64,000 bases of DNA, from positions 992,001 to 1,056,000 of the forward strand of contig NZ_CP015849.1 of the NCBI RefSeq assembly GCF_001654495.1. Direction: 5' to 3'. Within the stretch, counting starts at the first letter, position 1. Every line of letters begins with the position of its first letter. The notes under the pieces are model-generated. The model worked only from the letters and a program-made list of their open reading frames with translations. It was not told where the DNA came from and did no database searches. The position numbers were made by a program, and so were the translations under genes. Source of the DNA: Streptomyces sp. SAT1. GTDB lineage: Bacteria; Actinomycetota; Actinomycetes; Streptomycetales; Streptomycetaceae. Shown piece by piece: positions 29,268 to 34,327 of this stretch.

Positions 29268-30848
29268 ATGGAGAGATTCGGACGCTGGCTCGACTCGCCC
29301 TGGCGGCGCGGGGTGCTCGCGGTGCTCGCGGGGGCGCTGCCGATGCTCGCCTTCCCGGCGCCCGCGCTGTGGTGGCTCGCCTACGGCGCGCTCGTGCCGT
29401 GGATCCTGCTGGTGCGGTCCGCGCCGACCGCGCGGCGGGCCGCCTGCGACGGCTGGTGCGGCGGGCTGGGCTACATGCTGGCCGTGCACCACTGGCTGCT
29501 GCCCAGCCTGCATGTGTTCACCGTGGTGCTCGCGGCGCTGCTGGGTGTGCTGTGGGTGCCCTGGGGGTGGCTGGTGCGGCGGTTCCTGGCCGGGCGGCCC
29601 TCCGCCGGGCGGGCGGCGGCGGCGCTCGTGGTGCTGCCCTCGGGCTGGCTGGCCGCGGAACTCGTGCGGTCCTGGCAGGGGCTCGGCGGGCCCTGGGGGA
29701 TGCTGGGCGCCAGCCAGTGGCAGGTGGCGCCCGCGCTGCGCCTGGCGTCGGTGGGCGGGGTGTGGCTGCTCAGCTTCCTGGTGGTGGCCGTCAATGCGGC
29801 CCTCGCCCTGCTCGTGGCGGCGCGCGGGGTGCGGGTGCCCGCGGTGGCCGGGCTCGCCGTGACCGCCGCGGTGACCTCCGCGGCATGGGTGTGGGCGCCG
29901 CGTCCCGCCGTCGACGGCCAGGTCCGCGTCGCGGTGGTGCAGCCGGGTGTGGTCGACGGCGCCGAGAGCGGCCAGCGGCGTTTCGACCGGGAGGAGCAGC
30001 TGACCCGCGGTCTCGCGGGGCGAGGTGTGGACCTGGTCGTGTGGGGCGAGAGCAGCGTCGGCTTCGACCTGGCCGACCGGCCCGACCTGGCCCGGCGGAT
30101 CGCGGCCCTCTCCCGGGAGGTCGGCGCGGACGTCCTGGTCAATGTGGACGCCCGGCGCTCCGACCGGCCCGGGATCTACAAGAGTTCCGTGCTCGTCGGA
30201 CCGCAGGGCCCGACCGGTGAGCGGTACGACAAGATGCGGCTGGTCCCGTTCGGCGAGTACATCCCGGCCCGCTCACTGCTCGGCTGGGCGACCTCCGTGG
30301 GCAAGGCCGCGGGCGAGAACCGCAGGCGGGGCACCGAGCAGGTGGTCATGGACGTCGGGCACGGGCTGCGGATCGGCCCGCTGATCTGCTTCGAGACCGC
30401 GTTCCCGGACATGAGCCGCCATCTGGCGCGGGACGGCGCCGGGGTGCTGCTCGCCCAGTCGTCGACGTCGACCTTCCAGCACAGCTGGGCGCCCGAGCAG
30501 CACGCCTCGCTCGGCGCGCTGCGGGCCGCCGAGACCGGACGGCCCATGGTGCACGCCACCCTGACCGGCGTGTCCGCCGTCTACGGTCCGGACGGGCGGC
30601 GGATCGGCCCCTGGCTGGGCACCGGCGACAGCACCGCCCGGGTGTACGAGGTACCGGTCGCGCACGGCGTCACCCCGTACGTCCGCCTCGGCGACTGGCC
30701 GGTGCACGCGGCGCTGCTGGTGCTGGCCGCGGTGGGGGCGCACGAGGGCGTGCGGAAGGTGCTCAGGCGGCGGCGCCGGGGCGCTCCAGCACCGTCCGCA
30801 CCACGCGCTCGCACAGGTCGTGGGTCTCCAGCGCGTCCCGGGCGCTGA
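29268..30848 (+). CDS. lnt: Apolipoprotein N-acyltransferase
   Basis: 526 residues from the ATG at 29268 with TAGGAGG at 29254-29260. Six or so N-terminal membrane segments (residues 15-215) precede the nitrilase-like domain (about 222-480). The catalytic triad is readable: Glu in LVVWGESSVG, Lys in YDKMRLVPFGEYIP, Cys in GPLICFETAFPD. It transfers a fatty acyl chain to the amino group of the lipidated cysteine. Streptomycetes carry two such genes, and this position recalls lnt2 of S. coelicolor. The last 29 codons overlap the convergent oxidoreductase gene, giving an Arg/Pro-rich tail; this 3' overlap is antisense for both mRNAs. Confidence 0.93.
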   Translation: MERFGRWLDSPWRRGVLAVLAGALPMLAFPAPALWWLAYGALVPWILLVRSAPTARRAACDGWCGGLGYMLAVHHWLLPSLHVFTVVLAALLGVLWVPWGWLVRRFLAGRPSAGRAAAALVVLPSGWLAAELVRSWQGLGGPWGMLGASQWQVAPALRLASVGGVWLLSFLVVAVNAALALLVAARGVRVPAVAGLAVTAAVTSAAWVWAPRPAVDGQVRVAVVQPGVVDGAESGQRRFDREEQLTRGLAGRGVDLVVWGESSVGFDLADRPDLARRIAALSREVGADVLVNVDARRSDRPGIYKSSVLVGPQGPTGERYDKMRLVPFGEYIPARSLLGWATSVGKAAGENRRRGTEQVVMDVGHGLRIGPLICFETAFPDMSRHLARDGAGVLLAQSSTSTFQHSWAPEQHASLGALRAAETGRPMVHATLTGVSAVYGPDGRRIGPWLGTGDSTARVYEVPVAHGVTPYVRLGDWPVHAALLVLAAVGAHEGVRKVLRRRRRGAPAPSAPRARTGRGSPARPGR

Positions 30849-31677
30849 GCACCCGCCCCTCGCGCACGGCGTCGAGGAAGGTCAGCACGGCCTGCTCGAT
30901 GCCGCGCTGGCGGGCGACGGGCACCCAGTCGCCGCGCCGCCGCAGGGTCGGCTGCCCCTTGTGGTCGACGGTCTCGGAGAGGTTGACCACCTGCCGCTTG
31001 GTGTCCTGCCCGGAGACCTCCAGGATCTCCTCGGCGGAGCCGCTGAGCCGGTTCATCACGCCGAGCGCGGTGAAGCCGTCCCCGGCCAGTTGCAGCACCA
31101 CGTGCTCCAGCAGCCCGTCCCGCATCCGGCCGCGCACGGTGACGTCGTCGACCGGTCCCGGCACCAGGAACCGCAGGGTGTCCACGACATGGATGAAGTC
31201 GTCGAGGACCATCGTGCGGGGCTCCTCGGGCAGCCCGACCCGGTTCTTCTGGAGCAGGATCAGCTCGCGCGGGTGCTCGGCGCACTGCGCGTACCCGGGC
31301 GCGTACCGCCGGTTGAAGCCGACCATGAGTCCGGCGCCGCGCTCCTCGGCGAGCGCCACCAGGCGGGCGGAGTCGGCGAGTTCGTAGGCGAGCGGCTTGT
31401 CGACGTACGTGGGGACGCCGGCCTCCAGGAGCCGGGTGACGATCTCGGGGTGGACGGCGGTGGGCGCGTGCACGAAGGCCGCGTCGAGATCCTGCGCGAG
31501 CAGGGAGTCGAGGTCGGCGTGGCGGCGCTCGGCGGGCAGGTGGAGGATGTCGCCGACCCGCTGGAGGGTGGCGGGCGTCCGGGTCTGGATGTGCAGGTCG
31601 ACGCCGGGCTGCGCGCCGAGGACCGGCAGGTACGCCTTCTGCGCGATGTCGCCCAGTCCGATGCAGCCGACCTTCAC
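30763..31677 (-). CDS. Gfo/Idh/MocA family oxidoreductase
   Basis: 304 residues from a GTG at 31677, with AAGGAG eight bases upstream. The N-terminal Rossmann fold starts VKVGCIGLGDIAQKAYLPVL, with the family's EKP-type motif here as YVDKPLAYELAD (about residues 91-102), and the C-terminal sheet domain follows. The family uses NAD(P) on sugars, inositols or related substrates. The Asp replaces the usual Glu before KP, a tolerated variant. Its 3' end overlaps lnt on the other strand. Confidence 0.9.
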   Translation of the reverse strand: MKVGCIGLGDIAQKAYLPVLGAQPGVDLHIQTRTPATLQRVGDILHLPAERRHADLDSLLAQDLDAAFVHAPTAVHPEIVTRLLEAGVPTYVDKPLAYELADSARLVALAEERGAGLMVGFNRRYAPGYAQCAEHPRELILLQKNRVGLPEEPRTMVLDDFIHVVDTLRFLVPGPVDDVTVRGRMRDGLLEHVVLQLAGDGFTALGVMNRLSGSAEEILEVSGQDTKRQVVNLSETVDHKGQPTLRRRGDWVPVARQRGIEQAVLTFLDAVREGRVLSARDALETHDLCERVVRTVLERPGAAA

Positions 31678-31744: not shown

Positions 31745-32977
31745 TCAGCCGTGCTCGTTGCCTCGGGCGGCGGGTGTCCGGCCCGCCCGCACCGCAGCAT
31801 ACGGCGGCTGCGGAGGGCGCCAGTCGGCGACGCCGTCGAAACCGCGCAGCAGCGCTCCCGGCACGGTCCTGGAGACGGCGGTGACCAGCGCGTCGCGTAC
31901 GGCGGCACCGGCGCGGCTGCCCGTCATGTTCACGCGGGCGACCCGGACGGCCCGGCGGGTGAGGGCGGTCGCCCGGGGCAGCCGGGCTGCGGTGTAGGCG
32001 GCCAGGTCATCGACGTGGTGGGCGAGGACGACGGCGTCCTCGACGGCCAGGTTGCCGCCCTGGCCGAGGGTGGGCGGCATGGCGTGCGCGGCGTCGCCGA
32101 GCAGAGCGGTCCGGCCGCGGTGGTAGGCGGGCGGCGGCGGTGCGAGGTGGTGGACGTCGTGGCGGAGCACGTCCTCGGGGCGGGCGGCGGCGAGGACGGC
32201 GGGGACCGGGTGGTGCCAGTGGCCGAAGCGGCGCAGGAGTTCGGCGCGTTCGTCGTCGGCGCGCTGCCCGGCGGGCGTCCGCGCCGCGGCGTACGCGTAC
32301 ACGCGGCCGTCCTTGAGCGGGTGGGTGCCCCACAGGCAGCCGCGGCCCCAGGTCTCGTGGGAGGGGAACGCGGCGCCCGGTACCGGGATCATGACGCGCC
32401 AGGTCGTGAACCCGGAGTAGACGGGCCCGGGGTGGTCCGGGAACAGGGTCCGGCGGGACGTGGAGTGGATGCCGTCGGCGGCGACCACCAGGTCGGCCTC
32501 CAGTTCGCCGTCGGGGGTGGTCACCCGGGCCGGCCTGTGCGCGTCCCCGGGGTCGGCGAGGCGGGCGTGCACGGACGTGCGGACGGTGCCGGGAGGCAGC
32601 AGCGAGGCCAGCACACCGACCAGCGTGGCCCGGGGCAGCAGCACGATGGGGCCGCCGAAGCGTGCGGCCGCCGCGGCGGCGTCGGTGCGGGCCAGCCAGT
32701 GGCCGCCGGGTGTGCGCAGCCCGCCGTCGCCCTGCCAGGCGGCCAGATCGCGGATCCGGTCGCCGACGCCGAGGACGTCCAGGGCGCGCAGGGCGTTCGG
32801 GGAGAGGGAGATGGCCGCGCCGACCGGTTCCAGGGAAGGGGCGCGCTCCAGCACGGTGACCCGGCGGCCGGACAGGTGCAGGGCCGCGGCGGCGGCCAGC
32901 CCTCCGATGCCCCCGCCGATGACGACGACGGCCGGGGACGGGCCCGCGGACGGGTTCGGGGCTTGGGGCTGGGACAT
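31745..32977 (-). CDS. FAD-dependent monooxygenase
   Basis: 410 residues from the ATG at 32977, behind GGGAGG. Group A flavoprotein hydroxylase: dinucleotide loop VVVIGGGIGGLAAAAAL (residues 17-33), the DG motif in LVVAADGIHSTSR (about 160-172), and the GD motif in TALLGDAAHAMPPTLGQGGNLAVEDAVVL (about 290-318). Related enzymes hydroxylate aromatic rings or act on antibiotics such as tetracycline and rifampicin. It is divergent from a TetR gene, and three matching palindromes lie in the shared promoter region, so it is very likely inducible by a ligand of that regulator. Confidence 0.93.
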   Translation of the reverse strand: MSQPQAPNPSAGPSPAVVVIGGGIGGLAAAAALHLSGRRVTVLERAPSLEPVGAAISLSPNALRALDVLGVGDRIRDLAAWQGDGGLRTPGGHWLARTDAAAAAARFGGPIVLLPRATLVGVLASLLPPGTVRTSVHARLADPGDAHRPARVTTPDGELEADLVVAADGIHSTSRRTLFPDHPGPVYSGFTTWRVMIPVPGAAFPSHETWGRGCLWGTHPLKDGRVYAYAAARTPAGQRADDERAELLRRFGHWHHPVPAVLAAARPEDVLRHDVHHLAPPPPAYHRGRTALLGDAAHAMPPTLGQGGNLAVEDAVVLAHHVDDLAAYTAARLPRATALTRRAVRVARVNMTGSRAGAAVRDALVTAVSRTVPGALLRGFDGVADWRPPQPPYAAVRAGRTPAARGNEHG

Positions 32978-32999: not shown

Positions 33000-33070
33000 A
33001 CTACACCTGTAGTGACGCTTGGACACCCCGACCGTACTACGGATGTAGTGAGGTGCACTACGGGCGTAGT
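33000..33070. promoter_or_regulatory. Three operators, ACTAC-N4-GTAGT
   Basis: Perfect inverted repeats ACTAC-N4-GTAGT occur at 33000-33013 (spacer ACCT), 33036-33049 (GGAT) and 33057-33070 (GGGC), and nowhere else that I noticed in the window. Start-to-start spacings are 36 and 21 bases. They lie between the monooxygenase start (32977) and the TetR start (33091), as expected for TetR sites repressing both genes. Confidence 0.85.
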
Positions 33071-33090
33071 CCGCCGGTAGGTTGATCTCC

Positions 33091-33792
33091 ATGCCCGCTC
33101 CCGACGCACCCGCCCCGCGCGCCGACAGCCCTGACAGCCCTGTCAGCCCCGATGACCCCGGCACCCCGGACAGCGCCGGCCCCGCCGCCTCCGCCACCCG
33201 CGCCGACCGCGTGGCCGACGCCGCCCTCGCGCTGCTCGCCGAGCGCGGGATGCGCGGGCTGACGCACCGGGCTGTCGACGAGGCGGCCGGGCTTCCGCAG
33301 GGCTCGACGTCGAACATCGCGCGCACCCGGCAGGCGCTGCTGGAACTGGCCGTACGGAGGCTGGCCGACCGGGAGGCCCGGGTGCTGGCGCTGCACGAGA
33401 TGCCGGATCCGCGGACCGGCGGCCTGGACTCGCTGGTGGACGGCCTGGCGCTCGCCACCCATCGCGCGCTCACCGGCAACCGCCGGCTGACGCTCGCCCG
33501 CTACGAGCTGGCCCTGGAGGCGACCCGCCGCCCGGAGCTGCGCGCCCCCTTCGACGCCGCGGGCGCCCGCTTCCGCGAGCAGCTCACCGCACTGGTCACG
33601 GCGATGGGCTCCACGGACCCTGAGCGGCATGTGCTGTCCCTCGTCGCCTGGGCGGACGGGCTGATGTTCTCGTGCGTGGCCGGGACCTTCCACGCGCGGC
33701 GCCCGCGACTCGACGACGTACGGGCCGGCCTGCGGGAACTGCTGGGCGGCATGCTCGGGGGCGGGGGAAAAACTCCTGGTGCGAGGGTCTGA
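33091..33792 (+). CDS. TetR family transcriptional regulator
   Basis: 233 residues from the ATG at 33091; a TTG at 33082 is also in frame. Residues 1-38 are a disordered Pro/Asp/Ser-rich extension. The HTH is at about 40-85 ([37 protein letters not shown]) and the ligand-binding helices follow, ending near [14 protein letters not shown]. It faces the FAD monooxygenase, and the closest palindrome ends 21 bases before its start, so autorepression is likely. The DinB gene begins 20 bases after it and may be co-transcribed. Confidence 0.92.
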
Positions 33793-33811: not shown

Positions 33812-34327
33812 ATGACGACGACCGAACGCCGCGAGCCCGCCCAGAACGCCGACGAGCGCACCATGCTGGACGGCTGGCTGGACTACCACCGGCAGACACT
33901 CGCGTGGAAGTGCGAGGGCCTGACCGACGAGCAGTTGCGCACCGCGTCCGCGGAGCCTTCCGGGCTGACCCTGCTGGGGCTGGTGCGGCACATGGCGGAG
34001 GTGGAGCGCGGCTGGTTCCGCCGGGTGATGGCGGGCGAGGACGCGCCGCCGATCTACTACGACGACCAGGACCTGGACGGCGACTTCCGCGTCACCGCTG
34101 CCGACACCTGGGCCGAGGCCCAGGCCGCCTGGCAGGCGGAGATCGACGCCGCGCGCCGCATCGCCGCCGGACTGAGCCTCGACGACCTCTCCGAGGGCCG
34201 CCACAGGTCGAGCGCCGACCCGTTCAACCTGCGCTGGATCTACACGCACATGATCGAGGAGTACGCCCGCCACAACGGCCACGCCGACCTGATCCGCGAG
34301 CGCATCGACGGCGCGACCGGAGACTGA
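33812..34327 (+). CDS. DinB family protein (DUF664 type)
   Basis: 171 residues from the ATG at 33812, with GAGGA six to eight bases before. The four-helix DinB fold is supported by three spaced histidines that would bind a metal: [12 protein letters not shown] (about residue 57), and [21 protein letters not shown] (about 143-163). The mycothiol- and bacillithiol-dependent DinB enzymes of actinobacteria share this arrangement, so a thiol-transferase-like role is possible, though not shown. It follows the TetR gene closely and might belong to the same detoxification unit. Confidence 0.9.

Follow-up and report, generated by a model that had tools for sequence, protein, structure and literature searches.

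Tandem ACTAC-N4-GTAGT palindromes as predicted operators of a divergent TetR–monooxygenase pair in Streptomyces, with a candidate one-residue operator code

Introduction

The described system closest in layout to the locus studied here is the SCO7222 (TetR)/SCO7223 (monooxygenase) pair of S. coelicolor, where three perfect palindromes were footprinted and repression was shown (Ahn et al. 2012, PMC3511530). In the same work, Streptomyces TetR proteins encoded less than 200 bp from a divergent gene repressed that gene in five out of five tested cases. The Tn10-type TetR/tetA system also has palindromic operators, two in number, between the divergent promoters of its repressor and pump genes. At the protein level, the solved structures most similar to the TetR described here, in both sequence and fold, are those of EbrR (3hta, 3hth, 3htj), which include proflavin- and ethidium-bound forms, and SCO1917 (3iuv). 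The urate hydroxylase HpxO (3rp6) and the tropone 2-monooxygenase TrlE (8rqh) share the fold of its divergent neighbour (~30% identity, TM about 0.8).

We analysed a locus within a 64-kb window, that is, the whole stretch of DNA under study, to which the coordinates below refer unless stated otherwise. Like SCO7222/SCO7223, it comprises a divergent TetR–monooxygenase pair with a gap of less than 200 bp and three perfect palindromes of varying centre. Repression of the enzyme promoter was shown for the S. coelicolor pair and is predicted for the window pair. Their operators differ (TGGAACGNCGTTCCA versus ACTACRNNYGTAGT), and the likeness is one of layout. In common with Tn10-type TetR/tetA, palindromic operators between divergent promoters would control a repressor together with an enzyme or pump gene, but there the target is a pump instead of a monooxygenase, the operator is unrelated and the TetR similarity is marginal (E 0.04). 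The likeness to EbrR and SCO1917, which are about 30% identical to the window TetR, concerns the protein. Unlike HpxO, the window monooxygenase falls short of the HpxO equivalog cut-off (173 versus 500 bits). A search of the literature outside subscription journals, operator sequences included, returned no match to this operator or regulator. The switch itself is well supported and ordinary for Streptomyces, and would work like SCO7222/SCO7223 with another operator; what it adds is a searchable operator code and a paralogous pair in one genome.

Results

Genes and proteins at the locus

The four genes considered here are the following:

30763..31677, minus strand: Gfo/Idh/MocA oxidoreductase, downstream of the monooxygenase gene, a conserved neighbour
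31745..32977, minus strand: group A FAD monooxygenase, 410 aa, PF01494; nearest solved relatives HpxO and TrlE
33091..33792, plus strand: TetR-family repressor, 233 aa, PF17940 C-terminal domain; recognition helix G71-STSNIARTR-80 with key residue N75
33812..34327, plus strand: mycothiol-S-transferase-type DinB protein, PF04978, 19 nt past the tetR stop

The TetR protein carries the PF17940 C-terminal domain at 95 bits (cut-off 27.4), and its PF00440 score (20.4 bits) lies just below the cut-off of 24. Its structural model has a pLDDT of 87, and the top PDB matches all belong to the TetR family. The divergent enzyme is a group A FAD monooxygenase by its PF01494 domain (94 bits, cut-off 22) and its PHBH-type fold (model pLDDT 90; closeness to HpxO as above). 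No substrate could be assigned by enzyme family, since the protein passed no curated model: besides the HpxO equivalog (NF033623), it stayed below the cut-offs for 3-hydroxybenzoate 6-monooxygenase (NF006021; 139 versus 459 bits), rifampin monooxygenase (NF033145; 44 versus 800) and tetracycline destructase (NF033476; 46 versus 550).

The mycothiol-S-transferase-type gene (184 bits to PF04978, cut-off 27) is probably co-transcribed with tetR. It lies downstream of the TetR gene in 75 out of 80 close relatives and is absent from another family of the same order, which marks it as accessory. It is uncertain whether the Gfo/Idh/MocA oxidoreductase gene is part of the monooxygenase unit.

Three perfect palindromes in the intergenic gap

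The gap between the monooxygenase ATG (32977, minus strand) and the TetR ATG (33091, plus strand) measures 113 bp, within the 200 bp taken to define a divergent target, and holds all three palindromes, which are conserved with the regulator. Together with the promoter elements proposed below, they are arranged as follows:

33000..33013, no strand: predicted operator 1, ACTACACCTGTAGT, within the 5' leader of the monooxygenase gene, roughly +11 to +25 relative to its predicted start
33031..33036, minus strand: predicted monooxygenase -10, TACGGT
33036..33049, no strand: predicted operator 2, ACTACGGATGTAGT, with the initial T of the monooxygenase -10 at its edge
33057..33070, no strand: predicted operator 3, ACTACGGGCGTAGT; the tetR -10 begins 7 nt further downstream
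33078..33083, plus strand: predicted tetR -10, TAGGTT, 7 nt before the ATG

The initial annotation had described three identical-arm palindromes with spacings of 36 and 21 bases between divergent genes, and exact coordinates and shuffling confirm this. Perfect ACTAC-N4-GTAGT occurs three times in the window (starts 33000, 33036 and 33057; start-to-start spacings 36 and 21), while 100 dinucleotide shuffles of the window contained none (mean 0.00, maximum 0). Allowing up to two mismatches gave six sites in the window against 4.3 expected, no excess over chance; hence, the perfect sites are not embedded in a wider set of degenerate copies, and additional degenerate sites in the window were rejected as not going beyond chance. 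The motif had also been put forward as searchable genome-wide. In a scan of the 7,472,530-bp genome, the only exact sites were these three, and a reversed control pattern had no match.

The palindromes accompany this TetR across genomes

Of 80 loci retrieved from other genomes through the TetR protein, two or more perfect sites are present in 75, and one or more in 77. The five without two sites are accounted for individually: the gap is occupied by a run of N in one (L014), the monooxygenase start region, and the gap with it, is missing from two (L042 and L050), and the monooxygenase has been lost from the remaining two (L055 and L062), which keep the TetR with one TetR-proximal site. The consensus ACTACRNNYGTAGT fits 221 out of 223 sites. 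In a different family of the order, this TetR has diverged to 45–54% identity, yet two or three perfect sites are kept.

The association holds when the search starts from the DNA. All 30 loci fetched by the tandem pattern alone, the window's own locus being one of them, encode a divergent TetR and monooxygenase. Tandem ACTAC sites were found in 183 out of 393 Streptomyces genomes by DNA pattern search. Such a blind motif search recovers a TetR–monooxygenase module in roughly half the species of the genus. In a comparison of 61 genomes, tandem sites were present in 30 out of 32 genomes with a TetR ortholog (E below 1e-40) versus none of the 29 without (Fisher 2e-15). The two ortholog-bearing genomes without tandem sites are one that lacks the monooxygenase (G001) and one with a damaged TetR (G028). 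This conservation and co-occurrence strongly support the proposal that the palindromes are operators controlling the TetR/monooxygenase pair and form a motif that can be searched for genome-wide. They are almost certainly operators of the adjoining TetR, whose binding to them is predicted from sequence.

In G028, the decayed TetR copy (L136, G028:C787) has no intact helix-turn-helix, no monooxygenase match and no operator, and the whole module has apparently been lost there. Four loci of actinobacterial family f19 (L193, L195, L197 and L241) have the same TetR/monooxygenase pair with three ACTAC palindromes, indicating that triple operators recur outside Streptomyces. Single isolated sites elsewhere (L118–L120 and L122–L126) adjoin no TetR or monooxygenase gene. 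Because their neighbours are unrelated and the reversed control pattern matches about once per genome, they look like chance occurrences, and a wider regulon built on them was rejected.

Promoter geometry and the third site

A consensus promoter scan found no canonical sigma-70 promoter; the assignment of -10 elements, therefore, rests on conservation. A conserved TANNNT on the monooxygenase strand, at the place equivalent to the window's TACGGT, takes its first T from the TetR-proximal site in 99 out of 101 loci with two sites. On the tetR side, a TANNNT located 6–8 nt before the start codon lies exactly 8 nt past the end of the last site in 91 out of 110 loci. We infer from this conservation that the two elements are the -10s of the monooxygenase and tetR genes. 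Transcription in the window is predicted to start near 33024 (minus strand) and 33090 (plus strand), and the tetR transcript is predicted to be leaderless.

In most species there are two sites, of which one sits between the two -10 elements and the other within the monooxygenase leader. The back-to-back promoters of the window are more widely separated, and each is accompanied by an operator of its own, site 2 lying at the monooxygenase -10 (33036–33031) and site 3 seven nt ahead of the tetR -10 (33078–33083). The count of three reflects a doubling of the shared operator, with the copies spaced 21 bp. The alignment shows operator 3 intact in S. justiciae and in S. spiralis, which has four sites, but degenerate at the corresponding position in other near relatives, pointing to a lineage-specific elaboration. 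Judging from these sequences, the third site is an additional copy specific to the lineage; it may have been gained once and then lost in some relatives.

The array had also been described as a cooperative switch, which these comparisons do not support. Site spacings among relatives cover 16–42 bp (peaks at 33, 34, 28 and 29) and in many cases do not match the helical phase. As they do not fall on one helical phase, helical-phase cooperativity was rejected as a general design. Sites 2 and 3 of the window are 21 bp apart, corresponding to two turns, a spacing that would suit cooperativity.

Proposed mechanism and alternative explanations

The TetR encoded at 33091–33792 very probably binds each palindrome and represses both promoters, and is presumably released by a ligand. 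A TetR dimer would bind each ACTACRNNYGTAGT palindrome and repress the back-to-back promoters, one driving the monooxygenase gene, with the sugar-dehydrogenase-like gene possibly downstream, and the other driving tetR itself and the mycothiol-S-transferase-type gene. Site 2 abuts the predicted monooxygenase -10, site 3 would cover the -35 and spacer of the tetR promoter, and site 1 is located in the monooxygenase leader. Release would presumably follow when a small molecule, probably an aromatic one, binds the C-terminal domain of the repressor. The monooxygenase might then hydroxylate this ligand, with the thiol transferase perhaps conjugating the product. We offer this hydroxylate-then-conjugate detoxification unit as a guess. 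The response to a drug or metabolite postulated in the initial annotation is plausible by analogy with other members of the family.

Two alternatives concern the regulator. The palindromes might be bound by another protein, such as a BlaI/CopY-type winged-helix repressor, whose operator TACANNTGTA is contained in site 1: the CopY consensus (PMC7253601) fits ACTACANNTGTAGT sites, site 1 included. However, sites 2 and 3 (TACGGATGTA and TACGGGCGTA) do not match it, none of the four loci fetched for the BlaI/CopY (PF03965) genes of this genome contains TACANNTGTA or CTACN4GTAG, and the presence of sites follows the adjoining TetR, just as their outer base follows its recognition helix (see below). 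This binder was rejected as highly improbable. It is also improbable, if slightly less so, that the TetR only regulates itself or acts as an activator, the monooxygenase not being its repressed target. Ahn et al. (PMC3511530) found TetR proteins whose binding leaves the divergent gene unregulated, at gaps above 200 bp only, but the gap here is 113 bp. Moreover, the geometry of 99 out of 101 two-site loci, with one site abutting the monooxygenase-strand TANNNT and a second in the monooxygenase leader, is that of a repressor, and loci without a monooxygenase retain only the TetR-proximal site.

The biological role leaves more room. The pair could be a catabolic switch for a specific aromatic compound (phenol, nicotinate or urate-like) instead of a detoxification or drug-response module, as the monooxygenase most resembles, among solved proteins, HpxO (urate), TrlE (tropone), NicC and 3-hydroxybenzoate 6-hydroxylase. 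We regard this as a tentative option, somewhat on the doubtful side: the enzyme reaches no curated model at cut-off (173 out of 500 bits for HpxO, 139 out of 459 for 3-hydroxybenzoate 6-monooxygenase), no ring-cleavage gene was seen beside the pair, a thiol-transferase-type gene is adjacent, and the nearest solved ligand-bearing relatives of the TetR are those of the multidrug-binding EbrR.

Paralogous modules and a candidate operator code

TetR relatives at 40–49% identity carry TCTACRNNYGTAGA, and most of them are also divergent from a monooxygenase. One such module, a second divergent TetR/FAD-monooxygenase pair with TCTACRNNYGTAGA operators, is present in the same genome (L135, C1 about 5,071,930–5,073,830); the recognition helix of this paralogous TetR, at ~5.072 Mb, reads GTTSAYYRTR. 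Tandem TCTAC sites were found in 23 out of 101 Streptomyces genomes, whereas tandem GCTAC and CCTAC gave no pair in 101 genomes each, and operators with an outer G or C were rejected.

The comparison of operators with recognition helices covered 194 loci of several actinobacterial families, which together offer a large natural data set for reading the two side by side. Where the helix residue after GSTS (N75 in the window) is Asn, the outer base is A in 589 out of 592 half-sites. Where it is Tyr, Ala or Phe, the outer base is T in 77 out of 86, 103 out of 108 and 2 out of 2 half-sites, respectively (182 out of 196 when pooled). One position further out, Tyr goes with C (74 out of 82) and Ala with T (84 out of 104). 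When the TetR columns were scanned without guidance, residue 75 was the best predictor of the outer base, with a balanced accuracy of 0.997, against 0.962 for the next column.

A tree built with the helix masked implies about four operator changes, with two concordant independent pairs on supported branches and four on all branches; all are concordant, and with so few independent switches the covariation cannot reach significance on the tree. The cleanest switch is found in L206, L208 and L211, where GSTSYHARTR with mostly TCTAC half-sites is nested in a GSTSNHARTR/ACTAC clade. Exceptions to the code are L258, which combines Tyr with ACTAC, and L213 and L250, which have mixed outer bases.

These patterns make it reasonably probable that actinobacterial TetR–monooxygenase paralogues are insulated by such a code, Asn reading an outer A:T pair (ACTAC) and Tyr, Ala or Phe an outer T:A pair (TCTAC), with Tyr and Ala further separated by C versus T at the next base out. 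A one-residue swap would then re-wire a module to the operators of its paralogue, which amounts to a one-residue, one-base-pair prediction for TetR specificity. Since the species of the window has one module per operator type, this insulation is testable in a single strain.

The tandem TCTAC pattern retrieved 23 loci with a sole exception (L167, G012:C1:7043893), in which the sites lie beside a GntR-like gene and no TetR or monooxygenase was found. The same genome, G012, contains a monooxygenase gene with two TCTAC sites and no adjacent TetR (L171) and, 0.83 Mb away, a Tyr-type TetR with no adjacent sites (L143); perhaps these are the parts of a split module regulated in trans.
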